From Opitutaceae bacterium (GTDB lineage Bacteria; Verrucomicrobiota; Verrucomicrobiia; Opitutales; Opitutaceae), in the NCBI GenBank assembly GCA_025360455.1, contig JANYCF010000037.1, forward strand, positions 1-41,662: DNA of 41,662 nt. The letters run 5' to 3'. The translations under genes and the position numbers were made by a program. The notes beneath the pieces were generated by a model. The model was given only the letters and a program-made list of their open reading frames with translations. It ran no database searches and was not told where the DNA came from. The first letter of the stretch is position 1. The number at the start of each line of letters is the position of its first letter. Positions 2,986 to 33,956 of this stretch are shown here, piece after piece.

Positions 2986-2996
2986 GATCAGGAAGT

Positions 2997-4403: not shown

Positions 4404-5575
4404 GGTTTTATCCGCCCGGTCTCGGCGAGATTTTTCTCCGGCGCCAGCCATCCAAGATCGTATAGCCAATCAAGAAATGTCGCGGCCCGCCGATCCCAGG
4501 TGAGTGATTCCAGCGCGATGCCGTTGGAAAATTTTTCGCGTGAGACCATCGCCCGTCGGCACGCGTCGGCCATGTCTTTGATATCGGCCTCGCGATAGTA
4601 GAAGGCGGTTTCGCCCAGCAGTGCTTCGACTTCGCCCAAGCGGTTGGTCACCACCGGTCGGTTTGCCGCTGCATAATGAAACGCTTTTGTTGGGCAGCGG
4701 GAGACGTTAAAGGGTGTGTTGTGAAAGGGGAAGAGAAGGACGTCGGCCGCTGCGAGGTACGAAGCCAGTTGCTCCCGCGCGATATGGCCGGCAAAGCCGA
4801 TCCAGTTCGTCACCTTCGCGGTCACGGCGGAGGCCCGCAAATAGTCCAGATCCGGTCCGCCACCCAAGACACTGATAAAGGCGGTTGATTGCTCGGCCCG
4901 CAGAATTTTAGCGAGTTCGATCAGTTCGTCGATTTGATAGAAACGATTCATTGATCCGACATATAAGTAGAGCGGCCGGTCCTGGTCTTGGTGGCGCAGG
5001 GCGGTCGCGAGGGCTGGCTCGGCCTGACACTCTTCTGGCGCAATTGCCACGGGCAGCGCAAGGATGGCGCGGTCGAGTTCGGGTCGGCGTCGGTGGGCTT
5101 CATTAACAAGAAACCGGCTGGCGCAGACGAAGCCGTCGGCCCGACTCCAGAGGAAATTTTCGATTGCCTGCAAATACTTGCGGCGAAGGGGACTAAAGGT
5201 ATCGATCAAGGAGGGCAGTTCGTCGAAGTCCTGGATGATTTTAGGACGACCGCGTAAACGCCGCCGGGATATCAAGCTGCGGACGCCGACGCCCACGATG
5301 TAGACGCAGGACCATTCACCGCGACCGCAGAGGATGAACTTCGTCCACATTTCCTGCCAGGGGGAGCAGGGTGGAAAGAAAATTGTCTCAATGTCCTGAC
5401 CGTGTTGTGGGAAGAAGGCGACGTTCTCCGGGTGACTCGGGACCAGCACACTGACCTTGAGCCCGCGACGGGCCAGCGCGGTGGCGAGGAAATACAGTTT
5501 GTGTTGGGACGCATCGGTCTCAACCGAAGCGATGCCGACAAACAGGATATCTCGCTTATTCATGAACGTATTCAC
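4400..5575 (-). CDS. Glycosyltransferase family 4-like
   Basis: 391 aa; 'YVGSMNRFYQIDELIELAKILRAEQ', 'LLFPFHNTPFNVSRCPTKAFHYAAANRPVVTNRLGEVEALLG'. An alternative start is at 5563. Confidence 0.88.
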   Translation of the reverse strand: MNTFMNKRDILFVGIASVETDASQHKLYFLATALARRGLKVSVLVPSHPENVAFFPQHGQDIETIFFPPCSPWQEMWTKFILCGRGEWSCVYIVGVGVRSLISRRRLRGRPKIIQDFDELPSLIDTFSPLRRKYLQAIENFLWSRADGFVCASRFLVNEAHRRRPELDRAILALPVAIAPEECQAEPALATALRHQDQDRPLYLYVGSMNRFYQIDELIELAKILRAEQSTAFISVLGGGPDLDYLRASAVTAKVTNWIGFAGHIAREQLASYLAAADVLLFPFHNTPFNVSRCPTKAFHYAAANRPVVTNRLGEVEALLGETAFYYREADIKDMADACRRAMVSREKFSNGIALESLTWDRRAATFLDWLYDLGWLAPEKNLAETGRIKP

Positions 5576-6779
5576 GATCGCTTCCGTGGCGATGTTCCTG
5601 CCACAGCAGGAGGCAGAGCGCCACGGCGACGCAAATCCAGACGCGGCTCGATCCGGAGAAGGGGCTCATGGCGTAGTTCCACAAAGCATCGCACAAAAGG
5701 AGGAGCACGAGCGCGCGGCGCGGCGCGGGATTGAGCCATGCGCAACGAAACGCGGTGAGCAACAATGCGCCGAAGACAAAAAAGAAAGCTCCGCCCAAAA
5801 TGCCGCCTTCGGCCAAGGATAGGAGAATTTGCGAGTGAATGGTGAACTCGTTGATTTGCTCCTGCGTATACTCACCAAAAGATTCGTCCGTGCGGGCGCG
5901 CTTTTCCTCTACTTTGGAAATCATCCGGGTCGTAAACCAAGACCCTTGTCCGACCAAGGGGGATTCGAGGAAAGCGTCACTGGAGACCTCAATCATGCTC
6001 TGGCGCTCGAGATTGGAGCCGCGGTGCGCATCCTCTTCTTCAAACCTGGACTGCACCAAGGTGATCGCGCTCCAAACCACGGTCAACGCGATGAGCGTGA
6101 GCGGCCAGCGCCAGCGACTCTGGGCTTCGCGCAAATAAAGGATAGCGGCGATCAGCAGACAGATGCCGCCCATACTGCGATAGGAGAGCGCAAGATGGAG
6201 CACGCCCATAGCGAATGCGGTCATGATCTGGATCCAGCGTCCGCGTTCGGCAATGGCGTAAAGCAGGAGAACCGTGAGAGGAAACCCAAAGCAAAACTTC
6301 CAGTATTCCCCCGCGAGCGGACCGGCAATAACGGCCTGCGTTACCTGGCCGGCGGCCACGCCCAGCGCGAAAATCCAGAGACGCTTCCACGATCCGCCGA
6401 TCAGGCCGGTAACCGCCACCAAGTCGACGCCAAGAAACGCCACGCGCGCCCAACCGCGGAGAAGGTTGCCGGTGGGTGAACTGCGGTAGAGATCGGAGAT
6501 GACATAGCCGACGGCCATCACGATTACACCGAAGAGCAGCGTGGTGAACCAGCGATTCTGTTGTACTAATGCCGGCCACTCGCGGCGATAGATACGAAAA
6601 AAAACGACCACAGGAAAAACCGCGAGCAGGACCAATTCACCCACCGGCAGAGAGCCGACAAACTCAATGGTGAATTGTGAGAGTAGCCCCGTCAGACCGC
6701 AAAGGATCGGTACGGCCAAGCGGGCAAGCTTGGCCGGTTGCTTCTCAGTTGGTGCGTAATCGTGCGCAGGGTTATTCAT
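5556..6779 (-). CDS. O-antigen ligase/polymerase-like membrane protein (Wzy/WaaL type)
   Basis: 407 aa, multi-TM; 'FTIHSQILLSLAEGGILGGAFFFVFG' resembles the H-x-x-x-L...E-x-G-x-x-G region of O-antigen ligase-like proteins. Confidence 0.82.
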   Translation of the reverse strand: MNNPAHDYAPTEKQPAKLARLAVPILCGLTGLLSQFTIEFVGSLPVGELVLLAVFPVVVFFRIYRREWPALVQQNRWFTTLLFGVIVMAVGYVISDLYRSSPTGNLLRGWARVAFLGVDLVAVTGLIGGSWKRLWIFALGVAAGQVTQAVIAGPLAGEYWKFCFGFPLTVLLLYAIAERGRWIQIMTAFAMGVLHLALSYRSMGGICLLIAAILYLREAQSRWRWPLTLIALTVVWSAITLVQSRFEEEDAHRGSNLERQSMIEVSSDAFLESPLVGQGSWFTTRMISKVEEKRARTDESFGEYTQEQINEFTIHSQILLSLAEGGILGGAFFFVFGALLLTAFRCAWLNPAPRRALVLLLLCDALWNYAMSPFSGSSRVWICVAVALCLLLWQEHRHGSDREYVHE

Positions 6780-7333
6780 GCGCGCTTTCGTGGCTCCGCA
6801 ATCGGCGCACCCGATCTTACCGGATTATTTTGGCAAAAAAAAGTTCGCCCGGAGGAGCTGGGCCGGGGCGCACCTGCGAGCGACGCCCGGCGTGAATTCC
6901 AGCGGTGACGTGCCAGCCTGGCGACGATTTCCATCAGGCCCCACATGAGGGCGAGACCGAGCCAGCCACTGGCGATATCAAGAAGATCAAAAAACCGACT
7001 GTGGAGGGCGAGCTGGCCGAATTCGCTCACCAGAATAAAAAGCGCGAGAGCTGCCGCCGTGCGGCGGCGTTGGCGGCGTCCGCGAGCCAGCAACAGGAAG
7101 GGCAGTGCCAGCAAGGCAAACGCGGGCACGTTGCGGAGCTCGCCATGCTCGTCAATCCAGCGAAAAATTGCCCATGGCGGGAGCGGCAGCGTGCGGATAT
7201 CGCTCGACTCGCGGAAGAGAAGAAACAGTGCGACGCCCAGACCAATCAGGGCGATCGCCGCAACGGCCAGCCGCCAAAACCGGATGGGTTCACGCGGCGC
7301 ATAGAGGGCACGGGAGGGGCGAATGAGGGACAT
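6776..7333 (-). CDS. VanZ-like family membrane protein
   Basis: From Met at 7333 (MSLIRPSRALYAPREP...): 'GELRNVPAFALLALPFLLLARGRRQRR...ALFILVSEFGQLALHSRFFDLLDIASGWLGLALMW' VanZ-like layout. ATGA overlap with the following gene. The ORF extends to 7579 but that overlaps the upstream GT gene. Confidence 0.7.
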   Translation of the reverse strand: MSLIRPSRALYAPREPIRFWRLAVAAIALIGLGVALFLLFRESSDIRTLPLPPWAIFRWIDEHGELRNVPAFALLALPFLLLARGRRQRRRTAAALALFILVSEFGQLALHSRFFDLLDIASGWLGLALMWGLMEIVARLARHRWNSRRASLAGAPRPSSSGRTFFCQNNPVRSGAPIAEPRKRA

Positions 7334-7358
7334 GTTCAGAGGATTGATTCGCCCGAAT

Positions 7359-9872
7359 TCAGTGTGTGTACTGGCAGGGGAACGCGAGGGGAGTGACTTG
7401 GCGGCGGTAAAGATCCAGTACGGCACCAAAGCACGCCTCGACCGCGAAATGTTTAATGGCATGGGCGCGATGATTGCAAGGGTGGGCGGCCTGCCGTTGC
7501 GCGAGCCATGCTTCGATGGCCCCGGCGCAACCCGGGCGATCCTCCGGTGCAAACATATGGACGTGGGACAATCCTGCATTGCCGAAATCCGACATTCCCG
7601 GGCAGGTGGTGCCGATCACCGGCAGATTACAGGCCAGAGCCTCCAGCGCGACGAACGGCCAGCCCGCTTCGTAGCGCGAACTTATCATCAGTGCATCAAT
7701 GGCGTGATAAAATACCGTGGGGTCTTCCAGATAGTCGATGATCTGGACACGATCGGCGATGCCATTTTCCTGCGCCATGCGCAGGAGGTAGTCTTTCCAC
7801 TTGCCCCAGCCGATGTGCACGAAGTGAAGATCGGGGTTGTGTCGTGCGGCGTGCGCAATCCCGAGGTAGGCGGTCTCCGGGTCCTTCTGCCAGCACATGC
7901 GGGCCACCAAACCGACGACGGGAAGCTGCTCGGCGAGTCCGAAGCGTGCCCGCGCGGCCTTGCGCTGTTCGGGCGTTGGTGGTTGAAACCGCGTCGTGTC
8001 TACGGGATTGGGAATAATTTTCGCCCGATGCAATGGAACGTGATGAACGCGGTGGCCGAAAGCGGCTTCCTCGGCAGAAATATTAATGGTGGTGCCGATC
8101 CGGGCCAGGACGGTCTCGACCGTGTTGTAGATCAGCTTGGCCGTGTGGGGTTCACGCGACATCCCATAGTAGGCATGGGGCGTATAGAAAACAGCCGTGC
8201 TGGGAGAGATCAGGCTGGCCGTTCTCGCCAGAACACCGGCTTTTGAGCTGTGCCCATGAATGATATCCGGCCGCAATTCACGGACGAATTGGCTCAGCAC
8301 CCGAACAGCGTTGGCATCGCGAATTTCCGGGACGTTCATCACCTCCAGATTTAAAACTCGCCCGCCGGCGCGACGCACCGATTCGGTGAGTGCAATCAAT
8401 CGCCGGCTGCCCCGCCGGCTGGAATAGGCCAGATGCACACGCACCCCTCGATGCAACAAAACCCGAACCAAACCCTCAACGTGGCGAAACACCCCGCCTT
8501 CACCTGGCTCGAAAACCTGCAGGACCGTCAGCTCGCGTGATCCCGCTGCAGCGAGCGGCGCGGTCGTCGGAGTGGCAGTCGGTTTTTTTGGGGAATTCGG
8601 AGAGACCGGTGGATCAAGGTGAAGGGCGATGGCCGAACGGTTGTGATTTGTTTTGGTGGGCGCAGTCGCGGGCGGCTCGTCGTCCGGCCACGCATAGTTT
8701 GCAAATAAATCCGGATATTCTGTGGTGATGAAATTCCGCATCTCTGATCGGAAGCGTTCCGGTCCGAGACCCAGCACATTGGCGCGGCAATCCATCGGAT
8801 CAAAAGCGGGCATGGCTTCGAACCGCTTGATCGTGGCGGTGAGAGCCTCGGTGGTTTGTTCGGTGAAAAACAAACCGCTGACACCATCCTGCACGGTCTC
8901 CAGGGCGCCACCTTCCCCAAAGGCTATGACCGGTGCACCCGACGCCTGGGCTTCGCACGGCGTGATGCCAAAGTCTTCGATGCCCGGAAAGAGAAACGCT
9001 TGGCACCGTTCATAGTGATCCTTGACCGCTTCGTTTGACTGCCAGCCAAGAAAGGTGACGGATTTTCCGGCGCGTTGGCGAAGGTCGGGTTCCTCCGGGC
9101 CGGTGCCGATTACCACCAGCCGGCGATTAAGGCGGGTACATACATCCACGGCGATTTGTACGCACTTGTAGGGTACAAGGGCCGACACGATCAGGTAGAA
9201 GTCTTCCCTTGGTCTCGTCGCGTTAAAACGCTCCAAGGAAACGGGAGGATGGATCACCACCGATTCGCGTCCGTAGCATTTTAGAATGCGATCCTGGACA
9301 CAGCGGGAATTGGCGATAAATCGGTCAACCCGCTGCGCCATCCGGTGGTCAAATTTGCGCAAACGCGGGAGTGAGGCTGAAAACAGCGCGCGCCCAAAGC
9401 GGTTATTATGAGAGGAGGATTCGAGGTAGGCCTCTTCCAAGCCCCATAAATAGCGGGGAGGGGAATGACAGTAACAGATGTGCGGCACGCCATCCGGCAG
9501 ACGGATACCTTTGATCATCGCGGCGTCGGTGCTCAGGACGAAGCGAGTATCCGGCGGGACCCTGAGAGTGCGCACGATCTCGGGGAAGAGCGGCAAGAGC
9601 TTCCGAAAATGTCGTTTCAGGAACGTATGCTCCTGCAAAAAGCTGGTGTGATAGGTGTGCTGCTTCAGCGATGCGGAAAGATTCATCTCATTATAAACGA
9701 GAATGGAAATCGGTGCTTCCGGGAAAAGCAGACCGAACTGTTCCAGCACCGCTTCGCCGCCGCGAAAAAATTCCATCCAATGATGGACGAGGGCGGTCTG
9801 CTTAAGGCCGAGAGGCTGAACAGAAGCAGTCGGAGCCGGAAGATCTGGGGGCGCTAATAGGGTTGATTCCAT
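7359..9872 (-). CDS. Fused double-domain glycosyltransferase (two GT4/GT-B units)
   Basis: 837 aa. N-terminal half 'HHWMEFFRGGEAVLEQFGLLFPEAPISILVY...CYCHSPPRYLWGLEEAY...FLFPGIEDFGITPCEAQASGAPVIAFGEGGALETV'; Pro/Thr-rich linker; second GT 'LTVLQVFEPGEGGVFRHVEGLVRVLLHRGVRVHLAYSSRRGS...SSRYEAGWPFVALEALACNLPVIGT'. Confidence 0.9.
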   Translation of the reverse strand: MESTLLAPPDLPAPTASVQPLGLKQTALVHHWMEFFRGGEAVLEQFGLLFPEAPISILVYNEMNLSASLKQHTYHTSFLQEHTFLKRHFRKLLPLFPEIVRTLRVPPDTRFVLSTDAAMIKGIRLPDGVPHICYCHSPPRYLWGLEEAYLESSSHNNRFGRALFSASLPRLRKFDHRMAQRVDRFIANSRCVQDRILKCYGRESVVIHPPVSLERFNATRPREDFYLIVSALVPYKCVQIAVDVCTRLNRRLVVIGTGPEEPDLRQRAGKSVTFLGWQSNEAVKDHYERCQAFLFPGIEDFGITPCEAQASGAPVIAFGEGGALETVQDGVSGLFFTEQTTEALTATIKRFEAMPAFDPMDCRANVLGLGPERFRSEMRNFITTEYPDLFANYAWPDDEPPATAPTKTNHNRSAIALHLDPPVSPNSPKKPTATPTTAPLAAAGSRELTVLQVFEPGEGGVFRHVEGLVRVLLHRGVRVHLAYSSRRGSRRLIALTESVRRAGGRVLNLEVMNVPEIRDANAVRVLSQFVRELRPDIIHGHSSKAGVLARTASLISPSTAVFYTPHAYYGMSREPHTAKLIYNTVETVLARIGTTINISAEEAAFGHRVHHVPLHRAKIIPNPVDTTRFQPPTPEQRKAARARFGLAEQLPVVGLVARMCWQKDPETAYLGIAHAARHNPDLHFVHIGWGKWKDYLLRMAQENGIADRVQIIDYLEDPTVFYHAIDALMISSRYEAGWPFVALEALACNLPVIGTTCPGMSDFGNAGLSHVHMFAPEDRPGCAGAIEAWLAQRQAAHPCNHRAHAIKHFAVEACFGAVLDLYRRQVTPLAFPCQYTH

Positions 9873-9880
9873 TGAGGTTT

Positions 9881-10966
9881 TTATAGTGAGCGGTCTGCTG
9901 ACGCGGTGATCGCAACCGAGACGGATTGGGCCGCAAAGTGACGCAAGGCCTCGGTGGTCTCTTGGGCGCAGCGATCCCAGCTGTACCGGTTCGACTGCTT
10001 GCGACCGGCAGTGATCATGCGTTCTCTGCTTTTAGTCGGAAGGGAGGCGAAAGTCGTCAGTGCATGGGTGATGGATGCGGTGTCGTGCGGAGAAAAATAA
10101 AGACAAGCTCCGCCCAGTTCGAAAGCCGGGCCGCAAACCTCGGGCAGGCAGCTGGCATCGGAGCACAAGACCGGACAACCACGGGCCATGGCCTCGAGTG
10201 GGGGCAGACCAAAGCCCTCATAGAGCGAGGGGAAAATAAATCCTTCCGCCAAGGCGTAGAGGGCTTCGAGATCTGGATCGGTTACTTGGCCGAGCCTCTG
10301 CACCCGACCGGCGAACACGGCGGGCAGGGCGGCATTAAACAGCTGACGATTGCTGCCGCCGGCGAGCACCAGATGGAGGTCGCCCAAGTCAGCCGCCCCA
10401 AATGCGGCCAGCAAACGTGCAACATTTTTTCTGGGATCGTGGGAGCCGACAAACAGTAGAAATCTTTTCGGCAGATTGAACTTTGACCGGGTCGCGGCAA
10501 GGGCAGTGGCCCCCGGCGAGACAGGCGGCTGGGTGATGCCATTGTACACAACCGCAATCTTGCCCACTGGGATATCAAGAGCGGCGGCCAGGCGGACGCG
10601 GGAGAAATGGGAAACAGTTATCACGCCCAAGCTCCGCCGGGCCAGTCTTGGCAGCAGCCAGCGATACCAGTGGCCGAAGAGTCCGGTGAACGCGTCACGC
10701 TGATCGAAAGTTGCGGCATCATGGATTGTGACCACCTGCTGACGATGGAGCAGCGGCCCGGTATTCCCCGGACTGAACAACAACTGGTCCCGGCAGCGTA
10801 GGGGCAAAATAAATTGTTCCCAGCAATGGCCGATGATGCCCTGAGCTTGTTTTGCCAATGTGACGCGAATCACATTCTTGCCAAAGCGGGTATCCAACTC
10901 GCGAGCGTACCGCTGTACGCCCGATAGTGGGGCGTTAAGTGTGCGCAGGTTAAAAATAAATTTCAA
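9881..10966 (-). CDS. Glycosyltransferase family 4
   Basis: 361 aa; 'LSGVQRYARELDTRFG', 'FLLFVGSHDPRKNVARLLAAF', 'FIFPSLYEGFGLPPLEAMARGCPVLCSDASCLPEVCG'. Confidence 0.93.
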   Translation of the reverse strand: MKFIFNLRTLNAPLSGVQRYARELDTRFGKNVIRVTLAKQAQGIIGHCWEQFILPLRCRDQLLFSPGNTGPLLHRQQVVTIHDAATFDQRDAFTGLFGHWYRWLLPRLARRSLGVITVSHFSRVRLAAALDIPVGKIAVVYNGITQPPVSPGATALAATRSKFNLPKRFLLFVGSHDPRKNVARLLAAFGAADLGDLHLVLAGGSNRQLFNAALPAVFAGRVQRLGQVTDPDLEALYALAEGFIFPSLYEGFGLPPLEAMARGCPVLCSDASCLPEVCGPAFELGGACLYFSPHDTASITHALTTFASLPTKSRERMITAGRKQSNRYSWDRCAQETTEALRHFAAQSVSVAITASADRSL

Positions 10967-11091
10967 GAGAGGGAGGGGCGGACGGTGCCTTGATCGTTTA
11001 AATCCGGTACCAAAGCCATGCCGTGCGGTGGAAGCCGATTACGTTTAATGGGATAATTACACCCACTTCGCTATTCGCTGGACGCGACATT

Positions 11092-12621
11092 TCAGGGTAC
11101 AGCCTGTATATTGACCCTGACGTCGGTAGGCTTGGCGAGTCCGAGGTTCGTCGTATAAATGCTGGCGAGCGTAATGTTGGCGGTGTTACCCGTGAGCTCC
11201 GTTATGGGACTCAGAGCTTCGACAAAGCGGTCAACGCGTAGATCGGCTGGTTGATTCAGTTGATTATCGGTGATAAAAGTGGAGACGAACGATCCATTTT
11301 TCGCGATGTTGATCACATCTATGGAGCCGAGATTATTGGTATTCACCGACTGGAATAGAACTCCCCTGATTTGCAACGTGCCTTGGCTGCCGGATGGATC
11401 CACCTGAATGCCATATTGGCCGCACGATTGGACGCGGTTCTGCGCTGCACCGGTTGCCGTCGATCCGATGGCGATATCGGTGACGAGCGGACCAACAGTG
11501 ATGCCATTTTTGCTCACACCGACGATGACGTTGCCGGTGAGATTGATGCCGGAGGAGTAAGCCCCGAGGTAGAGGCCATGGCCGGCTGAATTTGAAATCC
11601 GATTGTTTTCAATGATGATATTTTTGATTTCAAAAGGTGATCCACCCGGCAGGGAATTGGCCCGGCCGAGCAAGGTCAGACCCGCATGTCCGGCAAGGAG
11701 AGTCTTGGGGCAGCGATCAATGGTGTTGTTCGAGATCGTCACCCCGTTCACGCCGTAGGTATCGTAACTTGATTCTGAAGCCAGGTAGATGCCGGAACCG
11801 GTGGTGTTCATGACATGGTTGTTTGAGATATTCAGCGTTTGGGCGCCAATTGCAGTGATGCCGCGACCGGTCAGTTGACTATCACCGGTGTTGTCGTGAA
11901 TCAAAATGTCCGAGCAGACTGCGCCGTTTGTACGGTAGGAAACGACGGCAATAAAATCATCGCCGGTGTTTTTGAGCGTATTGTCATGCACTTCAATATG
12001 GGCACTCACTTCTGTGACATGAATGCCGTCAGCCAGGTTGTTTGATATCACACAGTTTTGGATCTGAGCATAGCCTCCACTGATTGGGCCGGCTGACTGT
12101 CGGACGAGAATGCCGGCCGAGGCGACCTGGGTGATATTGAGATTGGATACAATGAAGCCATTGGCTTTGTAGATATGGATGCCGGTGGCGGCTGGATTGA
12201 TGTTGCGCACGGTCGGCGCGGTCTTGGTTCTGATCGTGAGACCGGTGGCAGACGGCGAGGCCCCGGTCAGGGTCAGCGAAGAATTGTTGGAATCGATGGC
12301 GATGAGCGTGGTCGAAGCAGTGGCTGCGCCCTGGGCCACCATACGGTCGAAGGTGAGCGTGGTGGAGTAAAGGTAGGTGCCGCCGGGAAAATAGACGATC
12401 GATCCGTTGCCCGCAGCCTTGGCTGCGGTGATCGTTTTTTGGATGGCGATGGTATCGTCGGTCACGCCGCCACCGGTGGCTCCGAAGGTGAGTACGTTGA
12501 AGGTGGCCCCATCGGCTCGGCTGGCCGCGGTGAGTCCAGCCATGGTTAAGCAGAAAAGTATCCGGCACATGGCGGATTGGGCGGCGAGGGCAGCGGATTT
12601 GTTGGCAGAGTGGTTCAGCAT
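11092..12621 (-). CDS. Secreted right-handed parallel beta-helix protein (pectate-lyase-3 / GH28-like fold), paralog 1
   Basis: Hydrophobic N-terminal signal-like region, 'FNVLTFGATGGGVTDDTIAIQKTITAAKAAGNGSIVYFPGGTYLY', then repeating short beta-helix turns (ISNN, IHDN, IENNRIS). Confidence 0.88.
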   Translation of the reverse strand: MLNHSANKSAALAAQSAMCRILFCLTMAGLTAASRADGATFNVLTFGATGGGVTDDTIAIQKTITAAKAAGNGSIVYFPGGTYLYSTTLTFDRMVAQGAATASTTLIAIDSNNSSLTLTGASPSATGLTIRTKTAPTVRNINPAATGIHIYKANGFIVSNLNITQVASAGILVRQSAGPISGGYAQIQNCVISNNLADGIHVTEVSAHIEVHDNTLKNTGDDFIAVVSYRTNGAVCSDILIHDNTGDSQLTGRGITAIGAQTLNISNNHVMNTTGSGIYLASESSYDTYGVNGVTISNNTIDRCPKTLLAGHAGLTLLGRANSLPGGSPFEIKNIIIENNRISNSAGHGLYLGAYSSGINLTGNVIVGVSKNGITVGPLVTDIAIGSTATGAAQNRVQSCGQYGIQVDPSGSQGTLQIRGVLFQSVNTNNLGSIDVINIAKNGSFVSTFITDNQLNQPADLRVDRFVEALSPITELTGNTANITLASIYTTNLGLAKPTDVRVNIQAVP

Positions 12622-12696
12622 GGAATGCTCTTTTCCTTTTATATGCAGGAAGGAGGCCAGAAAACGGCGGAGTTGAATTCACCAACCCGTGCGAGG

Positions 12697-14148
12697 TCAG
12701 TTGGGTTCAATAAAGCTGCCCAGTTCGATATTGGCCGTGTTTCTCACGGCAATGAGCGGCGTCAGTGATTCAATGTATTGCCGCGGGCGTGGTCCCGCCG
12801 GTTGTTCCAGCCGGTTGTCACTGACCAAGATTTGATCAAAGGTCCCTTTGCCGCCGATGCTGATAACATTGATGTGATTCAGATCCTTGGCGTTCACCGA
12901 TTGGAAATTCACCCCGCAGATGCGCAACACGCCGCGACTGCCTGCGGGATTTATTTGAATGCCGTGCTCGCCACAGGATCGGATGATGTTGGGCGGCGAG
13001 TTTATTTCTCCGGTACCGACGCTAATATCTGCGACCTTCGCGTAGATAGAAATACCGCAGGCCTGGGTGTGGGCAATCTCGTTGCCGACGATGGTGACGG
13101 TCGAGGAAAAGGCACCGATGAAGAGTCCGCTCCGCGCGGAGCCATCAATGTGATTACCGGAGATGGTCACGTTTTTTATTTCGAAGGGCTCGGCCGGGTC
13201 GGAGGGATTCGTTCGGCCGAGAAGAAGAATCGCTCCATGGCCCCGCGAACCTGACGTCACCAAGTCTGACAGAATGTTATCCAACACCTGTATGTTGATA
13301 TCGCCATACGTATCATAGCTGATTTCGGAGGCCAGGTAGATACCGGCGCCGGAAGTTCTTTTGATCACGTTGGCCGAGATCGTCACGTCGCTTCCGCCCA
13401 CTACACTGATTCCGCGACCATGGGACTGGTTCTCCACCAGATTGTCGTGAATGTTGATGTCATGGCAAAGCCCGCCATCCGCCCGATAGGAAACCACGGC
13501 GATGAAATCATCGCCGGTTTCGCTGACCTTGTTGCCTGAGACTTCAATATGGTGACTCGTTGCTGTCATATGGATGCCGTCGGCCAGGGTCTGGTTGACG
13601 ATGCAATCGCGAATCTGGGCGTATTTTCCGGGGTGGCCGCCTGATTCACGGATCAAAATGCCGGCACTGTCCACGGGGCCGATTTTCACGCGCAACAGGG
13701 AGAAATGGGCGGCCTGCTTAACCTCCAGGCCAACGGCTGCGCCATTGGTGTTACGTTTTGCATGCGAGCTCAGCGCGTGAATCGTCAGATCCGCGATTGC
13801 GGGGGATTCTCCGGACAAGACCCAGGCGGAGTGCTGGCTATCGGTCGCCTCAAAAATCGTCTGGTGCATTCCTGCGCCGTAAACGACGATTCCGGGCAAG
13901 TGGATATTTCGCGAATAGCAGTAGGTTCCAGCCGGGAAGAATACTGCTTTGTCTTTTGGATTTGTCTGGGCGGCCAGCAAAGCCGCTTCGATTGCCCTCG
14001 TGTCATCCGCTTTTCCATCACCGAGCGCACCGTATTGCCGGGCATTGATCCACTGGTAGGGGAGGGAGGTGTCTTGGGCGTGAGTGATGACGCCGAGAGC
14101 GGTCACGGCCACGTAGGCAAGGAGAAGGCGGATGACGGCGGAGCTCAA
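12697..14148 (-). CDS. Secreted right-handed parallel beta-helix protein, paralog 2
   Basis: 483 aa; signal-like N-terminus, 'INARQYGALGDGKADDTRAIEAALLAAQ...AVFFPAGTYCYS', shared 'AGILIRESGGHPGKYAQIRDCIVNQTLADGIHMT...TGDDFIAVVSYR'. Confidence 0.87.
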   Translation of the reverse strand: MSSAVIRLLLAYVAVTALGVITHAQDTSLPYQWINARQYGALGDGKADDTRAIEAALLAAQTNPKDKAVFFPAGTYCYSRNIHLPGIVVYGAGMHQTIFEATDSQHSAWVLSGESPAIADLTIHALSSHAKRNTNGAAVGLEVKQAAHFSLLRVKIGPVDSAGILIRESGGHPGKYAQIRDCIVNQTLADGIHMTATSHHIEVSGNKVSETGDDFIAVVSYRADGGLCHDINIHDNLVENQSHGRGISVVGGSDVTISANVIKRTSGAGIYLASEISYDTYGDINIQVLDNILSDLVTSGSRGHGAILLLGRTNPSDPAEPFEIKNVTISGNHIDGSARSGLFIGAFSSTVTIVGNEIAHTQACGISIYAKVADISVGTGEINSPPNIIRSCGEHGIQINPAGSRGVLRICGVNFQSVNAKDLNHINVISIGGKGTFDQILVSDNRLEQPAGPRPRQYIESLTPLIAVRNTANIELGSFIEPN

Positions 14149-14266
14149 TGTCTTCCTTGATCGGTTGAAAATTTCACGGGTGCATTGCGGAGTGAGCCGA
14201 TATTTTTATGGCGATGTTCCGAGATTAGACTGCTTGTCCCATTCAAGTCTGACCGGTCGGACCGAT

Positions 14267-15823
14267 CTAGAGCAGGGTATAAATACTCGGCAGGACGACC
14301 ATGGTCGTGTTGCCGGAAACCTGGGTCAGCGGCGTGCTGATCGCTTCGATGAGCCGTTCGACCGGGCCGTTGGTGGAATTCAGATAACGATTTTTTTGGA
14401 TCGAAATCTTGGCCCCGGGGCCGATGCCACTCACATTGATGACATCGATATAACTCGTTTTTTTCTGATTTACCGAATCGATGATATTCTCGGTGATGTC
14501 GATCGTGGCCGTGCTGGCGGTGGCATCGACATAGATGCCATAGAGGCCCGTGTTGCAAATGGTGTTGCCGAATCCGGTCACGGGATCGGCGACGATTGCC
14601 ACGTTGTTGGCGCCGGATTGCACGGAAATTCCGTTGCCCCCGGTTTGCATAACGGTGTTGCCGGTGCAGGTGGTGAACGACGAACCTTTGGCCAGCACAA
14701 TCCCGTCGTAGGTGGTGAACGCGACATTGTTCAGGGTGAGGGTAACGGAGCGGGAGCAAGCGCCGACCACCATGCCGTAGGTGGCGCTATTCATGACGGT
14801 GTTGTCATCCACGGTCACGTTGGTCACCCACAGGTCGGTGGCGGTGCTGTTGGCGGGGTTCACCCGACCGGAGAAGGTCATTCCGGCGTGGCCCGCGATG
14901 ACGGCCTTCGGACAATTCTTGATCAGATTATTGTAGACCTTTACTCCGTCGACGCCGTAGGTGTCGTAATTTGCTTCCGACGCCAGGTAGATTCCGGAAC
15001 CGGAGGAATTAATGACTCGGTTGTGGTATATCTCGACATTGCTGCCGCCGACGAGGCCAATGCCGCGGCCGTTGGTCTGACGTTCGCAGGTATTGTTATG
15101 GACCAAAATTGTTGAACAAATGCCGAGGTCGCCACGATACGACACAATCCCGACAAAGTCGTCACCGGTGTCGTGAACGTAGTTGTCGTGAATTTCGATG
15201 GAGCTGCTCACTTGGGTGACATTGATGCCATCAGCCAAAGTGCGCATGATTTCGCAGTTTTGAATCTGGGCGTAGCCGCCGCTGGCGGGTCCGGTTGACT
15301 GCCGGACGAGGATGCCGGCCGAGGCGATGTGGTTGATTTTGATGTTGGAAATCGTGAAACCGTTGGCCTTGTAGACATGAATACCCGTCCCGGCGGGATT
15401 GGTATTGCGCGCCACGGGGGCGGTCTTGGTGGTGATGGTCAGGCCGGATGCTGCCGGATTTGTTCCGGTCAGGGTCAGCGCCGAGTTGTTAGAATCGGCG
15501 GCGATCAGAGTGGTTGAGGCTGAAGCCGCGCCCTGAACCGCGATGCTGTCGAAAGTGAAGGTGGCGGAATAGAGGTAATTTCCGCTGGGAAAGTAGACAA
15601 CCGAACCGGCACAGGCGGCCTTGGCGGCAGTGATGGTCTTTTGGATGGCGATCGTATCATCGGTCACACCTGTGCCGGTGGCTCCATAATTTGCCACGTT
15701 AAATACGGCGGCCGTCGCCAGATTTGTGGCGAGAAGTCCGCTCAAGGTGGCGCAGAAAAACAGCCAAGCTGAGGTGGGTCTTGGTCGAGAGCCAAGAGAA
15801 GTAATCGAAGAAGGCCAATTCAT
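14267..15823 (-). CDS. Secreted right-handed parallel beta-helix protein, paralog 3
   Basis: Met at 15823 (MNWPSSITSLGS...), signal-like region, 'FNVANYGATGTGVTDDTIAIQKTITAAKAACAGSVVYFPSGNYLYS', same conserved core as the two neighbours. The ORF is open to 15862. Confidence 0.87.
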   Translation of the reverse strand: MNWPSSITSLGSRPRPTSAWLFFCATLSGLLATNLATAAVFNVANYGATGTGVTDDTIAIQKTITAAKAACAGSVVYFPSGNYLYSATFTFDSIAVQGAASASTTLIAADSNNSALTLTGTNPAASGLTITTKTAPVARNTNPAGTGIHVYKANGFTISNIKINHIASAGILVRQSTGPASGGYAQIQNCEIMRTLADGINVTQVSSSIEIHDNYVHDTGDDFVGIVSYRGDLGICSTILVHNNTCERQTNGRGIGLVGGSNVEIYHNRVINSSGSGIYLASEANYDTYGVDGVKVYNNLIKNCPKAVIAGHAGMTFSGRVNPANSTATDLWVTNVTVDDNTVMNSATYGMVVGACSRSVTLTLNNVAFTTYDGIVLAKGSSFTTCTGNTVMQTGGNGISVQSGANNVAIVADPVTGFGNTICNTGLYGIYVDATASTATIDITENIIDSVNQKKTSYIDVINVSGIGPGAKISIQKNRYLNSTNGPVERLIEAISTPLTQVSGNTTMVVLPSIYTLL

Positions 15824-16010
15824 AGTGAGTGCAGTTACTCGTGTGCATCGGCGCAGGTGCAAAAAAATTCGCTTCTGTCAGGCTGGGTCGCAATGGATTT
15901 ACCCGGTTATGGAAAGAAGGCATCATTGAATTAATAAGACCGATGAATTCGGTTCATTGAGTGACTCATGGTTTTGAAATGAGTGATCGGCTGTGAGGAT
16001 AGGGAGGGAT

Positions 16011-17306
16011 TCATGTTTGATCTTGCTCCATCGCTTCCTCGTCGGAGTCGACGCGTGGCAGCAGGAGAGAAACAATCAGGAGGGTGATAATGGAGAGGAA
16101 TATCCGCTCATGGGACCAATAAAGCAGACGAGGACATTCCGCCAAACCGATCAGAAATATAGGAAAACCGAAAACGCCCAGCGTCAGTCCGCGCCGGGCT
16201 GAGGCAAGTAACGTTCCGCCTACTGCTCCGAAAAAAGCCGCCAGGAGCAATCCGCCCCAACCCCAGTCGAGGAACGCGACACCGAAGCAGCCAAAAAGAT
16301 TAAATTCCGGATTGAGCCCGTACTGAGGGTCCAAGAGAAATTGCCACATCCCGTCGCTATTCGCGATCATCGTGTGAAACGCAGGGATGGAATTTGAAAG
16401 TGTCTTTCCAATGACCGGTGTGTTCAGCATAAAACGAAACGTATAATAGCCCCCGGTCCGGTGGCCGAAGTTTTCCCGGACCAGCATGCAGAGGTGATTG
16501 ACCGGGGTAATGTAATAACCTGTCAGCCGATAAAAGATGAACTCAACGAAGTCCCCGGGAGTGTTTTGATAAAGTCCGCTTCTGACGTAGTCGGGCCAGC
16601 TGCGAAAATACTCGGCGAGAGAGAACATGCTGACAAAAATAAAAATTCCCGCCGTGGCAAAAATCAGCAGTGTCCGGGTCTTCAGCTTGCGGAAGAGAAA
16701 CCAGGCCACAGGCAGGCCCAGTTCGAAAAGGGGCAGTCGCTCAAAGTAGAGAAAACGAATACCCACGCAGCCAAGGACGAGCAATCCGAGGAAAGCCGCG
16801 ATGAACTTTATCCTCCGGGAGGTTTGGCCAAAAAAACTATACCCAAGCAAGCCGGCAAAAAGCGGGGTCAGCGCCATAAGAAACAGCGGAGCTCCCGTTC
16901 CCGTCAGCAAAACTTCCTGCTTCGCCGCAGTCGCACCTTCCAAGCTTTTCATGATGGCATGACCGGCATAAAATAACGACAAGTGCCCGATAATCGCCAG
17001 AGCTGCGCAACCGAAGAGGAGAACCTGGAGTCGCGCCGCCGTCAGAATTCCGCGGCTAAAGGTAGAGAGTGCGGTGACGAGATGCACGCCGAAGGTCGCT
17101 CCGATGATCAGTGCGGCCGAAAATAGCGCCGCAAAAGCCATCAAATACTGAAGAGCCGCCTCCGAATAGAATTTCTGGGCCCCAAAAAGCCGGGAGAAAC
17201 TGACCGGGCTTATGGTGAGGAATCCCAGCAACAACACGCCGTGGACAGCCAAGATGTAGGAGAAATAGAACCACTTGTTCTCAATCAGTTTTTGTTGTCC
17301 GGCCAT
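16011..17306 (-). CDS. Oligosaccharide repeat-unit polymerase-like membrane protein (Wzy type)
   Basis: 431 aa, multi-TM; 'FRSWPDYVRSGLYQNTPGDFVEFIFYRLTGYYITPVNHLCMLVREN' long loop and C-terminal TMs typical of Wzy-like proteins. Confidence 0.75.
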   Translation of the reverse strand: MAGQQKLIENKWFYFSYILAVHGVLLLGFLTISPVSFSRLFGAQKFYSEAALQYLMAFAALFSAALIIGATFGVHLVTALSTFSRGILTAARLQVLLFGCAALAIIGHLSLFYAGHAIMKSLEGATAAKQEVLLTGTGAPLFLMALTPLFAGLLGYSFFGQTSRRIKFIAAFLGLLVLGCVGIRFLYFERLPLFELGLPVAWFLFRKLKTRTLLIFATAGIFIFVSMFSLAEYFRSWPDYVRSGLYQNTPGDFVEFIFYRLTGYYITPVNHLCMLVRENFGHRTGGYYTFRFMLNTPVIGKTLSNSIPAFHTMIANSDGMWQFLLDPQYGLNPEFNLFGCFGVAFLDWGWGGLLLAAFFGAVGGTLLASARRGLTLGVFGFPIFLIGLAECPRLLYWSHERIFLSIITLLIVSLLLPRVDSDEEAMEQDQT

Positions 17307-17314
17307 GCGGCAGC

Positions 17315-18460
17315 TTAATTTTGTGTCTGCGGCACCGGGCTCGCGACCGGGCGAAAACCACGCAGGACGGATTCAAAGGCGACCGCGGATTGTTCCCAGG
17401 AAAACTCGGTGGCGCCTAGCAGAGCGACCCGATCATCATGGCTTTCGCGGCGAGCGGCGACGCGGAGTGATGCGATCAGCGCCTCGGGCGAATTGATGGG
17501 AAAATAGGTCACGAGATCTTTTCCGATTTCCCGAAACACCGGGATATCCGAGCAAATCACCGGTGCGCCGCACGCGAGAGCCTCGATCAGGGGAATGCCG
17601 AAACCTTCGTAGATCGACGGAAAAATAAAAGTATGGCAGCTGGAATAAAGAGACGGGAGGTCTTCGTCCGCGACGTAGCCCAAATGGACAATACCCGGAC
17701 TTTGCAGCAGCTCGGTGAATTCCGGGTCTTCGTTGAAGGTGGAGAATTTCCCGCCCGCGAGAACCAAGTGGATTCCCGTTTGCGCGAAAAGACCGCTGTC
17801 CACGTAGGCGCGGATCAGGGCCTTGTTGTTTTTTCTCGGGTCCAGTGAGCCCACCGTGAGAAAGAAACGGTCGGGCAGCTGATACTTGAGCCGGACCGCC
17901 GCTAGGTGCGTTGCGGATTGCGGCGAAAATTTTTCGGAAACGCCGTTGTACACCACATTGATTCGCCCCCGGAGCCGCGGATACTTTTGTTCGATCTCTC
18001 CCTTGACCGTGTGGGACACGGTGGTCAGGCCGCGCACCCAAGGCAAGGTGAGCGCGCAAGACAGCTGGTGTTTATAACGGAAGACACGGGAAAAAAACTG
18101 GGGATAATGGTGAAAACTCAGATCGTGCAGGGTGATGATCTGATTGGGAATGTGTGGTGCCCCGATATTGGATGGATTCCAAACCAAGGTGTCACCGACG
18201 CCTTTCAGCCGAAGATAAAGCGGTGCATCAAGGAAGGCCCAGCCGGGCAGATGCCGGCTCAGCCGGGGCCAACAGCTACCGATGTGCACGGGAACTTCGG
18301 CCAGCCGCGATGGAATAGTCACGCCCGGCTGAGCGAGGAGAGTGACCCGGCCGGGATTCCTTGCGGCCAAAACCCGCGTCAGCTCGATGGCGTAGCGCTG
18401 CACACCGGTCGGGCGCTGCTTCAGGAAGTTTCCGAGAACAATCAGTTTTGGGATCGGCAT
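17315..18460 (-). CDS. Glycosyltransferase family 4
   Basis: 381 aa; 'PTGVQRYAIELTRVLAARNPGRV', 'FFLTVGSLDPRKNNKALIRAYVDSG', 'FIFPSIYEGFGIPLIEALACGAPVICSDIPVFREIG'. Confidence 0.93.
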   Translation of the reverse strand: MPIPKLIVLGNFLKQRPTGVQRYAIELTRVLAARNPGRVTLLAQPGVTIPSRLAEVPVHIGSCWPRLSRHLPGWAFLDAPLYLRLKGVGDTLVWNPSNIGAPHIPNQIITLHDLSFHHYPQFFSRVFRYKHQLSCALTLPWVRGLTTVSHTVKGEIEQKYPRLRGRINVVYNGVSEKFSPQSATHLAAVRLKYQLPDRFFLTVGSLDPRKNNKALIRAYVDSGLFAQTGIHLVLAGGKFSTFNEDPEFTELLQSPGIVHLGYVADEDLPSLYSSCHTFIFPSIYEGFGIPLIEALACGAPVICSDIPVFREIGKDLVTYFPINSPEALIASLRVAARRESHDDRVALLGATEFSWEQSAVAFESVLRGFRPVASPVPQTQN

Positions 18461-19719
18461 AGGGCCAGGATTTCGGTGACTTTCTTTTCCCAGGTCTGTT
18501 CACTTGCCGCAGCGCGCAGGTTTTTTAAAACATTGGCCTGATCCGCAGGTGATAGATCGGCCCATTGGGACCAGGCCGTGCCCAAGGTTTGGGCCAGGGC
18601 TGCGCCCCCGAAAGTTTTGCTCAAGTGTACTCCGGGATGGTCCTTCAATTCCTGCAGTGAACGCAACGGCGGGGCGATCACCTGCACCCCGCTGCCAATC
18701 ATTTCGAACAACTTCATGGGGAAGCGCCCATGGTTGGACGAGCAGTTGGTGAAGGGCAGTAGCGCGAAATTGTACTTCGACAGTATGCGGGGCAAATCTT
18801 CGTAGCGAATTGGTCCGTGCCAATGAACGTTGGCGGGGAAATCCGCCGGCGTCGCCCAAGATGACGGTGTGTATATATCGAACGCTTGCGCCGGCAGCCG
18901 GGTGGCGAGATCACAGAGCGCAACCAGATCGATGCGATCATCCAAGGCGCCGTAGTAAATCACCCGCTGCAGGTCGCGCTCGCCGGATTCCAAGGCATGG
19001 TGCAGGAAAAACGAGTCCACCCCGTTGGTAACCACCGAGGCGGTTCGGCCGGACATTATCTTCACGTAGCGGGCCAACGGTGCGCTGGTCGTGATCACGG
19101 CATCGCACTGCGCGAGTGCCTTGCGCAGCATGCGGAAATTCGTCTCGCGATCGGGTGAGGGGATTTGTCCGGGCATCCAATCGGTCAGCCGCACGATAAA
19201 GCGAAAGCCTTGGGTTTGCAGCCAGCAGGCAATATCCACCGCATAGGGATTATCCAGTATCACGTAGCGTTCCCGGGGGAAATGCTTGATCGTTTTGGCC
19301 AATTGCCGTCGGAACAACCGGGCGTTCAGCGTGAGAATTTGTTCCCGCATGAGGGGACTCTTGGCGCGAAGCGGAATCCACAATCGTGGAGCGAGCGAGG
19401 ACGAGTTGTTCTTTTTCAGCTTTGATGATCGCCAGCCTGCAAAAGGTTCTATGCCCACTACCACGATGTCGCGTGCACGTTTCAGAATGCGCAGGAGATG
19501 GTGGCTTCCCACCACAAAGGGCGAACTGAATTCGGTATGCGCCAAGAGCAGCACCCCCAGTGACGGTGAATCGGGCGGTGTCATGGACGGCTTGGCAATG
19601 GTTGCCTGTGCAGTCATGGACAAAGGGAAGGGGCGGGGCTGGAGTGGCTGTCCGCGCAAGGTGGTCGTGTCAAATGTTGCAACAGTGCCGGGATTACCTG
19701 GTGGTGGGAAGGTTTCCAT
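18442..19719 (-). CDS. Glycosyltransferase (GT-B, GT4-like)
   Basis: 425 aa; 'DLPRILSKYNFALLPFTNCSSNHGRFPMKLFEMIGSGVQVIAPPLRSLQEL'. Overlaps the downstream GT by 19 nt. Confidence 0.82.
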   Translation of the reverse strand: METFPPPGNPGTVATFDTTTLRGQPLQPRPFPLSMTAQATIAKPSMTPPDSPSLGVLLLAHTEFSSPFVVGSHHLLRILKRARDIVVVGIEPFAGWRSSKLKKNNSSSLAPRLWIPLRAKSPLMREQILTLNARLFRRQLAKTIKHFPRERYVILDNPYAVDIACWLQTQGFRFIVRLTDWMPGQIPSPDRETNFRMLRKALAQCDAVITTSAPLARYVKIMSGRTASVVTNGVDSFFLHHALESGERDLQRVIYYGALDDRIDLVALCDLATRLPAQAFDIYTPSSWATPADFPANVHWHGPIRYEDLPRILSKYNFALLPFTNCSSNHGRFPMKLFEMIGSGVQVIAPPLRSLQELKDHPGVHLSKTFGGAALAQTLGTAWSQWADLSPADQANVLKNLRAAASEQTWEKKVTEILALCRSQN

Positions 19720-19740
19720 CTTGGTCGGCTGAAGTGCCCG

Positions 19741-20706
19741 CTAGGTCTGGCCTAAAAACGATCGGGTCTTCCGCAGCAATCGTTTCGACATCGTTGCGAC
19801 AAACCAACGCGAACGGGCGGTTGCCCTTGGCTGAATCATCTGGCGGGTGTCGGTGCAAAAAACGAATTTGCCCGTGCGATTGGCGATTTCTCGCGCCTGC
19901 CCGATGGAGCTTTCATAAAACATGACGGTTTCGGTGCTCCGGTAGACCGAGGCCTTGAACGAGCCATAGCAGCCCAGGCGCCGGCGTTCTTGGGCGTTCG
20001 GCAGATCGAGCATCCGCAGTTGCCCATAAGGAATCTGGTGCTGCGCGAGCCAGGCTTCGGTTTGCGGCCGATATTTTTCCAAGCGCGAAGTCACGAGGTA
20101 AGCCACCTTGTAGGTCGGGATATACCGGGGCGGAACCTCGGTCAGAAATTTCACGTAGCCGGCGCCATCGTCGTTTTCCGTTTCAAGAGGATCCCGGCAA
20201 AGCACCCCGTCGATATCCATGCAGCAATTCGGAATCAAATTCCGGTGGTGCATGATGTTCCACTCAAACGCCCGCGGCTGTGCGACCTCGCTGGCAAAAT
20301 AATCGACTGCGGAGCCTGTGCCGGGCGACACGTAGATGGCGGCAAAATAGTATGCGCAATTTCGGTTCGAGGTGCTGAGCAATTGGCGCGCCGTGGCCAT
20401 GGCCGTGCCGCGGTCATAGCTGTCATCGACGATCAGGACTTTCGGCCGGCTGCTTGCGCCGCGAACGGTTCGTTCGCCAATTCGCTCCCCTCCGCCCAAG
20501 GTGCGGTTGGCAATAAATCCGTCGAGATCGGCGAGCGGAAGATTGAGGTGGAGGGCAATCAGGTTCGCGGCGAGTAATCCGCTGCGCGGGATGCCCACGA
20601 CGAGGCTAAGGTCGCGCGGCAAGGTGGGCAACCACGCCACAATATCGGCGTTGAGCTCGGCGACGCTGCGGTACTGCATGGTCATGTCTGGGAGGGCGAC
20701 TTTCAT
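19741..20706 (-). CDS. Phosphoribosyltransferase-HAD hydrolase fusion-like protein
   Basis: PRPP-binding-like 'KVLIVDDSYDRGTAMATAR' and 'LVVGIPRSGLLAANLIAL' in the N-half; HAD motif-I-like 'CMDIDGVLCRDP' and 'YLVTSRLEKYRPQTEAWL' in the C-half. Met at 20706 gives an ATGA overlap with the upstream flippase. Confidence 0.78.
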   Translation of the reverse strand: MKVALPDMTMQYRSVAELNADIVAWLPTLPRDLSLVVGIPRSGLLAANLIALHLNLPLADLDGFIANRTLGGGERIGERTVRGASSRPKVLIVDDSYDRGTAMATARQLLSTSNRNCAYYFAAIYVSPGTGSAVDYFASEVAQPRAFEWNIMHHRNLIPNCCMDIDGVLCRDPLETENDDGAGYVKFLTEVPPRYIPTYKVAYLVTSRLEKYRPQTEAWLAQHQIPYGQLRMLDLPNAQERRRLGCYGSFKASVYRSTETVMFYESSIGQAREIANRTGKFVFCTDTRQMIQPRATARSRWFVATMSKRLLRKTRSFLGQT

Positions 20707-22001
20707 ACGGGATTGGTTCGTTTCAGGTTCCACCAACTAAGAGACATGCTGCCGGCCAACACTCCAAATTCGCTGAGACAGGCGACACTGCTGGCAGCAA
20801 TCGCACCGTAATGCGGAATAAGCACGAGGTTGAAACCCAAACTGAGCAGGGCCACGGCGCTCGTGATGGCGAGCATCGATTTGTCGCGTTGCTGAGCCCA
20901 GAGTCCCCAGGTGAAAAGGCTGTTGAGAACGACAATACCCTTGGAGGAAAGCAGGATCGCACAGGGCAGGGCGCCGCCCGCGAAGGCTTGCCCAAACACT
21001 TTGGGGAAAAGCCAGGGCAGGACAAAAAATGCCGCTGCCACCGCCGGGATGAGCAGAAGAGAAAAGGCAAGCATCAGCTGCAACTGGCGACGGAAGAGCA
21101 CATGCGGGCCTTCCTTGGCCCAATCGATGAGCCGTGGATAGAGAATCGCCGGAATCAGGGCGAGAAAAGGGTAGACGGCCTGCACCACTTGCAGGGCGGG
21201 ACGATACAGGCCCAGTTCGCTGACGGAGCACAGGCTGGCGATCAACAATTGTTGAAAACTGACGTAAGTATAAATGACCACGGCGCTCAAAATCAACCAA
21301 TGGTGGCTGAAGGAGCGCACGAGATAATTTTTCCACCGGCCCCGCGTGCAAACGGAAATCGTGTGCCGGCGCCAAGCGTATCGCCAGGTAAGAAACCAAG
21401 CGGCCGCACCGGCCAGCGCCTGTGCGATCATATCCATGCCCGCTACCGGGAATGGCACCAGGAGGATCACGATCATCACGGTAACCAAACCGGCCTGCAA
21501 GGCCACGAATCGCTGTTGGGCGGGAACATCGTCGGTCGCCTGAAAAATCCAGGTCGGCGACGTCGCTTGTAACACCAGCAGGACAAACCCCGCGCAAGCG
21601 GCGATGAGGAATTTATGGTCGTGGTCACCAAAAAATTCGACCGCGAAAAGGAGAACGCCGAGCAGAAGGCTCGTGAGCAATCTTCCCCAGAAGACGTCGT
21701 TGACGAGATCGTCGCGTTTTTTTGAGTCAGCTTCGGTGCGATAACTGCGGACGAGCGAAATATCCTGGCCAAGGGTGACAAAGAGAATGGCCGTCAGCAA
21801 AAGAGATTGTACCACGCCCGAGATACCCAGCTTTTCCGGTCCCAGCCAGCGGGCCGCCAAAATGGCGCCGATCGCCCCGGTGCCGGCTCCGCCAATTCGC
21901 CACACGGCGCTGCTCAGATATTTTTGGGCGGACAGTTTCCACGCGTAACCTGATTGGATCACCGGTGGAGATATGCCGGCACTGGCAACAGCCTCAGACA
22001 T
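20703..22001 (-). CDS. Polysaccharide flippase, Wzx-like (second in locus)
   Basis: Multi-TM; 'LSSAVWRIGGAGTGAIGAILAARWLGPEKLGISGVVQSLLLTAILFVTLGQDISLVRSYR'. Probable Met at 22001 (MSEAVASAG); the ORF is open to 22148. Confidence 0.85.
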   Translation of the reverse strand: MSEAVASAGISPPVIQSGYAWKLSAQKYLSSAVWRIGGAGTGAIGAILAARWLGPEKLGISGVVQSLLLTAILFVTLGQDISLVRSYRTEADSKKRDDLVNDVFWGRLLTSLLLGVLLFAVEFFGDHDHKFLIAACAGFVLLVLQATSPTWIFQATDDVPAQQRFVALQAGLVTVMIVILLVPFPVAGMDMIAQALAGAAAWFLTWRYAWRRHTISVCTRGRWKNYLVRSFSHHWLILSAVVIYTYVSFQQLLIASLCSVSELGLYRPALQVVQAVYPFLALIPAILYPRLIDWAKEGPHVLFRRQLQLMLAFSLLLIPAVAAAFFVLPWLFPKVFGQAFAGGALPCAILLSSKGIVVLNSLFTWGLWAQQRDKSMLAITSAVALLSLGFNLVLIPHYGAIAASSVACLSEFGVLAGSMSLSWWNLKRTNPV

Positions 22002-22173
22002 CGGAATGAATCGGTTGCGGTGACTGTTGGCGGCATAGCTTCGCCTCGTCACTTCTGTTCCCGTTTTGAGTGGGAAGGAGTGAACCAGCATAGCGATTGG
22101 ACTGTGGGTCTGCCTGAAACAAAATTGGTCCGTGTTTTTTACCGCCACGGCTCAGGCGGTATTTCGGGGGCGC

Positions 22174-24471: not shown

Positions 24472-24481
24472 AGTAATGGGA

Positions 24482-25132: not shown

Positions 25133-25138
25133 GTGATT

Positions 25139-26299: not shown

Positions 26300-26305
26300 C
26301 TTGGA

Positions 26306-33908: not shown

Positions 33909-33956
33909 AGGGAGAAATGATGGGGGAAAGCTAAGACTGAGCGCGCGATATCACGA

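Follow-up and report, generated by a model that had tools for sequence, protein, structure and literature searches.

Arg-type beta-helix proteins in an exopolysaccharide cluster of an Opitutaceae bacterium: predicted glycosidases related to family GH87

Enzymes that are encoded together with the polymer on which they act, such as PslG, PelA and WceF, set the chain length of that polymer and are useful against biofilms. WceF is a beta-helix glycosidase of the stewartan cluster of Pantoea stewartii, whose knockout results in longer chains (PMC7949094), and a further precedent is the GH16 enzyme PrmQ, encoded in the promonan cluster of Sphingomonas (PMC11340318). In family GH87, the replacement of D1067, D1090 or D1091 of the Bacillus enzyme Agl-KA by Ala or Asn nearly abolishes activity, with the activity of D1067A, D1090A and D1091A undetectable at 30 min, and the authors pointed out that GH28 and GH49 share the three Asp (PMC6814745). 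The GH110 enzyme PdGH110B, with D321, D344 and D345, carries out an inverting reaction on alpha-1,3-galactobiose (PMC7939477). A beta-helix protein is also encoded in the Bep exopolysaccharide (EPS) cluster of Burkholderia cenocepacia, which contains Wza (Bcam1330), Wzc (Bcam1331), a 12-transmembrane protein (Bcam1332) and an acyltransferase (Bcam1333), then GT4 glycosyltransferases, and a parallel beta-helix protein, Bcam1339, directly before ManC, Bcam1340 (PMC3584217); BerB is Bcam1342 in the same cluster (PMC5552954). The published Bep repeat, [3)-a-Gal-(1->3)-a-Glc-(1->3)-a-Gal-(1->3)-a-Man-(1->], which comes from a Bep-overproducing strain, is neutral and entirely alpha-(1->3)-linked (PMC7084887). 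In the literature that we searched, no trimming enzyme was assigned to Bep, and Bcam1339 appeared just as a hypothetical beta-helix protein of unreported function.

The window analyzed here, a stretch of 41,662 nucleotides of the Opitutaceae contig JANYCF010000037.1, contains three tandem beta-helix genes in an EPS region (Table 1). Their location in an EPS operon, as proposed in the initial annotation, agrees with their position, flanked by a Wzy-like and a GT4 gene, and the intergenic gaps of 75-148 bp among the three genes and to these two neighbors are compatible with a single operon. An alternative internal ATG start of protein 3 is found at 15823, which is the end given for this gene previously. 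An N-terminal hydrophobic segment of the signal-peptide type, identified as a hydrophobicity peak rather than by a signal-peptide predictor, is present in all three proteins, which are thus predicted to be secreted. Wzx-type flippases are encoded at 2997-4469 and 20703-22148 and Wzy-like proteins at 5556-6779 and 16011-17306 of one same-strand block, which suggests two polymer pathways side by side. Between a glycosyltransferase gene and a Wzx gene of the same region, a protein with a phosphoribosyltransferase domain (PF00156, 27.6 bits) is encoded at 19741-20736, and the presence of RmlA and RmlB in the window suggests rhamnose.

Table 1. Features of the window discussed in the text.
Feature	Position	Strand	Remarks
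Beta-helix protein 1	11092..12621	-	509 aa; D198 / D221 D222 / R253 / E283; PF13229 and PF12708
Beta-helix protein 2	12697..14148	-	483 aa, TTG start; D190 / D213 D214 / R245 / E275; PF22816 above cut-off
Beta-helix protein 3	14267..15862	-	531 aa from TTG; D211 / D234 D235 / R266 / E296
Same-strand EPS region	341..27937	-	GT4s, two Wzx, two Wzy-like, Wzc-like kinase, Wza
Further members of the same EPS region	341..27937	-	Outer-membrane beta-barrel, polyprenyl glycosylphosphotransferase
Wzy-like repeat-unit polymerase, directly upstream of the beta-helix genes	16011..17306	-	TIGR04370 25.3 bits, below cut-off 40
GT4a glycosyltransferase, directly downstream of the beta-helix genes, recurrent partner	9881..10966	-	Pfam
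GT4b, recurrent partner	7359..9872	-	837 aa, two GT4 regions; Pfam, two stretches
RmlA and RmlB (dTDP-rhamnose precursor supply), outside the main block	33030..35009	-	TIGR01207 463 and TIGR01181 481 bits, above cut-off

The three proteins had been described as beta-helix proteins with an ordered signature in common, and this description stands. The motifs LADGI(H/N)(V/M)T, TGDDF(I/V)..VSYR, GRGI and G(S/A)GIYLASExxYDTYG occur in this order in each of them exactly as quoted, including the YDTYG block, with identical spacing in all three: 23 residues from the first Asp to the Asp pair, 32 from the pair to the Arg of GRG, and 30 from this Arg to the Glu of ASE. Among the Pfam families named earlier, PF12708 and PF13229 match all three proteins, and PF00295 (GH28) is below the cut-off or absent. 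The three proteins are 37-52% identical in pairwise alignments and group as one clade in the tree (support 95/88); being homologous, they do not provide independent evidence by sharing motifs among themselves.

The closest described family is GH87. PF22816, the GH87 catalytic domain D2, matched protein 2 with 42.2 bits (cut-off 27), protein 3 with 24.2 bits and protein 1 with 14.5 bits, and protein 2, which also matched GH87 structures in the PDB, is the nearest to GH87 of the three. When the alignment of ten clade members was compared with that of five GH87 proteins by HHalign, the E value was 1.8e-42 (score 327, 318 columns), with Arg facing His, and GH87 was also the first match when the PDB was searched by sequence with the protein 2 core. 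In the window proteins, the Asp of DGI and GDD align with the three mutationally proven catalytic Asp of GH87; the PDB alignment includes two structures of GH87 Asp mutants, 6k0p and 6k0s, and it is exactly there that they differ. The 23/24 spacing of the Asp in all three proteins is that of GH87 and GH110. With GH87 (Agl-KA, Agl-FH1; PF22815 and PF22816) the window proteins have in common the beta-helix catalytic domain, this spacing and the TxADGI(N/H) and TGDD blocks. However, the window clade lacks PF22815, has Arg where GH87 has His or Asn after GDD, contains VSY and E-x-x-Y-x-T blocks, and is found mostly in an EPS-biosynthesis or phage-tail context. The Pfam scan detected the galactose-binding-like domain PF22815 in none of the three window proteins, and both PF22815 and PF22816 in each of the four GH87 proteins, of the five, that were scanned (L086, L087 at 9661-12114, L088 and L089). 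In a 39-row tree, the five GH87 proteins were split from the rest with support of 100/99, and the Arg-type clade was their sister, outside the GH87 branch; this tree was rooted at the midpoint and has several long branches, which makes the relations within the Arg-type clade unsure. GH110 alpha-1,3-galactosidases, which are inverting, share the D/DD spacing and the beta-helix but differ in domain layout, in their exo pocket and in their low sequence identity: no GH110 Pfam match was obtained for the three proteins, and GH110 was seen among fold matches at 11-12% identity only.

The residue after GDD distinguishes the clade. In a 55-row alignment, the three Asp were kept in all 54 relatives covering those columns, which bears out the proposal that the DGI and GDD carboxylates are retained, and the position one turn later was Arg in 49, His in 4 and Asn in 1. 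The rows with His or Asn are exactly the five GH87 proteins, and all covered clade members have Arg. The window genome itself encodes a two-domain GH87 protein with Asn in place of this Arg (L089, contig C381), as well as a protein that passes the GH28 cut-off (L091, contig C227), and the Arg-type proteins are thus additional to both. The replacement of the GHG His by Arg, which had been proposed from the sequence, is therefore real and lies one turn after GDD; it marks a clade beside GH87 and not a broken GH28 site, since the solved GH87 enzymes have no GHG His there (ANGI in 7c7d, RRAAAFAVYGG in 6k0m). This Arg/His switch provides a simple sequence rule separating the Arg-type clade from the GH87 enzymes sampled. 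In a ten-row alignment (25-42% identity of the rows to protein 2), invariant columns cluster on the signature blocks, and the identity of the sequence around the Asp triad drops to 25-30% among relatives.

The AlphaFold2 model of protein 2, for which ten rows of window and viral-contig sequences were used as input, had a pLDDT of 85.3 and a pTM of 0.87, with block means of 89-98 in the motif region (residues 191-290). D190, D213/D214 and R245 are located just before strands 192-195, 216-219 and 247-250, respectively, and E275 directly follows strand 270-273. The strand positions and the fold matches together describe a right-handed beta-helix in which one turn bears D and the next DD, as in the clan GH-N type, and by the strand positions D, DD and Arg would stack at equivalent positions of consecutive turns. 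The top PDB fold match was GH87 7c7d, followed by AlgE epimerases, GH110, RbmB and tailspikes. The GH87 matches, at 16-18% identity, had TM scores of 0.53-0.57 and, over the long solenoid, an rmsd of 8-10 A, and therefore support the fold and not the detailed geometry.

These results suggest, with a probability of roughly two in three, that the three proteins are secreted inverting glycosidases of the GH-N type that trim the EPS of their own cluster, probably at alpha-1,3 bonds, the activity and the linkage being read from relatives. The biological role that we infer for them is as follows. They would be right-handed beta-helix glycoside hydrolases beside GH87, without the galactose-binding-like domain, in which the three Asp on consecutive turns may form an inverting acid/base site, one serving as the acid and the others activating water. 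The target would be alpha bonds of the EPS made by the same operon, most likely alpha-(1->3) ones, and action during or after export could set the chain length or allow remodeling and release of the matrix. The invariant Arg one turn further and the E-x-x-Y-x-T block probably shape a substrate subsite. Because GT4 enzymes are retaining, they form alpha linkages when using NDP-alpha sugars, which fits the GT4-rich cluster of the window. Since all three copies keep the site, each is expected to be active, and it is possible that they cleave different linkages or act at different stages of export. WceF is similar in being a beta-helix glycosidase encoded within the EPS cluster of its own polymer, but it is a tailspike-type trimer and the sequence match to it is marginal (6tgf, E 0.61). 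In the literature searched, no clade member with a measured activity was found.

Other readings differ on the family or on the activity. The initial annotation had used GH28 as its frame, and homology to three GH28-like proteins is detectable by HHalign (E 8.8e-15), with D and DD carboxylates and a similar block order; however, the score of 116 is far lower than the 327 for GH87, PF00295 reached 17.5 bits on protein 1 (cut-off 22.9) and did not match proteins 2 and 3, and all three proteins have GRG instead of GHG and no R-I-K block, the latter being consistent with a neutral-sugar substrate. GH28 was thus ruled out as the parent family by Pfam and HHalign, and a canonical pectinase-type enzyme is the most improbable of the readings considered. 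Hardly more credible is a C5-epimerase that acts on the nascent polymer in the manner of AlgE or AlgG, because the high rank of AlgE4 and AlgE6 in fold and N-terminal sequence matches reflects mainly, for the sequence match, the shared N-terminal capping motif GDGVTDD, and epimerases act on uronates. DPHE is the catalytic motif of AlgE-type enzymes, and no DNA pattern coding for it is present in the window; the AlgE-type assignment was rejected on these grounds.

It was also suggested that the proteins trim or modify the polymer as a hydrolase, lyase or epimerase; modification is likely, and the last two activities are less so. In a polysaccharide lyase, the Asp cluster would bind calcium and the invariant Arg would be the base in beta-elimination, as in calcium-dependent beta-helix lyases. 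The contrast between Arg in the clade and His or Asn in GH87 would suit this, the fold matches include the VPS lyase RbmB, and Agl-KA binds Ca2+ at D1067 and D1090 and was called lyase-like by its authors (PMC6814745). Nevertheless, beta-elimination requires a uronic acid, whereas the Bep polymer, linked to the clade by synteny, consists of neutral Gal, Glc and Man; no Pfam uronate-forming dehydrogenase was present in the scanned subset of window ORFs, although such genes may lie elsewhere; and the spacing of the Asp triad is exactly that of GH87 and GH110, all of which makes a lyase unlikely. Alternatively, the enzyme scaffold could have been retained as a non-catalytic factor for polymer binding or export, since the beta-helix surface adhesin PfbA is among the fold matches and three tandem copies could be structural binders. 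Conservation of the catalytic Asp in the window, solo, Burkholderia and phage-tail copies is instead what would be expected of a selected active site, and a binder, the least improbable of these four alternatives, is also considered unlikely.

The glycosidase reading is further informed by eleven Burkholderia loci, in which ManC is the neighbor of the beta-helix gene and a sigma-54 activator is close by. One of them, L218, has the order Wzc, Wzy, acyltransferase, GT4, GT4, GT2, beta-helix, ManC and VpsR-domain activator. It does not correspond to the Bep cluster gene for gene, as L218 has no identified Wzx and a different third glycosyltransferase, but the beta-helix protein, ManC and activator agree. 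The beta-helix protein Bcam1339, whose neighbors in a cluster with Wza, Wzc, Wzy and GT4 genes are ManC and BerB, has the gene order of the homologs found here (PMC3584217), and by this synteny it probably belongs to the Arg-type clade. GH87 and GH110 cut alpha-1,3 bonds, the linkage type of the published Bep repeat. In the Burkholderia clusters (L079, L207-L210, L212, L213, L215, L216, L218 and L222), the beta-helix protein is 57-89% identical to the L218 copy, and its neighbors vary less (ManC, 83-93%; sigma-54 activator, 90-99%). The beta-helix protein varies with the glycosyltransferase and Wzy content of these clusters, hinting at co-evolution with the polymer. A link to the rhamno-mannan of B. 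multivorans was considered and dropped, because no paper ties that polymer to this cluster.

The Arg-type clade was found in EPS clusters of five lineages, repeatedly with similar kinds of GT4 and Wzy: the window, two genomes of its family (G013 and G089), a Sphingomonas paucimobilis plasmid, Cupriavidus and the eleven Burkholderia loci. For high-GC loci, genes were read from six-frame BLAST matches together with a GC score by codon position. In each cluster, one GT4 had GT4b as its highest-scoring counterpart in the window, with 144-336 bits in most clusters (next window glycosyltransferase at most 55) and 51-62 bits in L210, L212 and L218, and in several clusters a GT4 scored highest in the window against GT4a (103-244 bits). 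The proteins of other clusters that match the two-region GT4b are single-GT4 proteins. The Wzy of most carrying clusters also matched the Wzy-like protein upstream of the beta-helix genes (BLAST, 28-32% identity, 47-69 bits). In the family of the window, the distribution is patchy, with 6 of 100 genomes positive at E 1e-20, a count that includes GH87 proteins; 31 of 250 sampled Burkholderiaceae were positive at E 1e-25 or better, and in the phylum-wide search the clade was near-absent, this count being a lower bound as at most four candidates were scored per genome. A contig scan with a three-row alignment was set aside, as it returned mostly proteins sharing just the GDGVTDD cap. Two clade members (L083 and L084) are encoded in catabolic loci, where sulfatase or GH4 and LacI genes also occur, so that context and the Arg/His residue agree largely and not perfectly. 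The neighbors of the GH87 proteins L086 and L087 are FAD oxidoreductases, with a GntR-type regulator close to L086 as well.

Tail beta-helices of phages commonly cut surface polymers, and the occurrence of the clade in tail proteins therefore supports a depolymerase role. The tail protein gp29 of Arthrobacter phage Peas, which is recorded as a glycosidase, contains YADGMH, GDD..VSY, SRG and ESSYSTYG and was the best viral fold match (TM 0.70). The DGI, GDD and RG blocks were present in at least six further IMG/VR contigs, and a search with a core-only alignment gave eight viral loci, seven of them with this signature; the first viral scan had recovered mostly proteins with just the shared GDGVTDD cap. 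On a broader view, which is tentative and which we rate somewhat below even odds, these proteins may constitute an undescribed Arg-type glycosidase family for all-alpha-(1->3) biofilm polymers, encoded beside their GT4/Wzy makers, shared with phage tails and including Bcam1339, in which the triplication in the window would correspond to separate cleavage sites per repeat unit. Gene order, fold, catalytic residues and the published Bep linkage converge on a function that is directly testable.

Solo copies away from EPS genes were observed in Burkholderia (L214, L217, L223, L224, L226 and L227), with the catalytic residues kept where scored. A prophage-like tail region on a Deinococcus radiodurans plasmid encodes a weaker member with variant residues. 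Phage and prophage tail proteins with the signature were found in L228 (2961-4703), L229-L236 and L205 (11866-13044).
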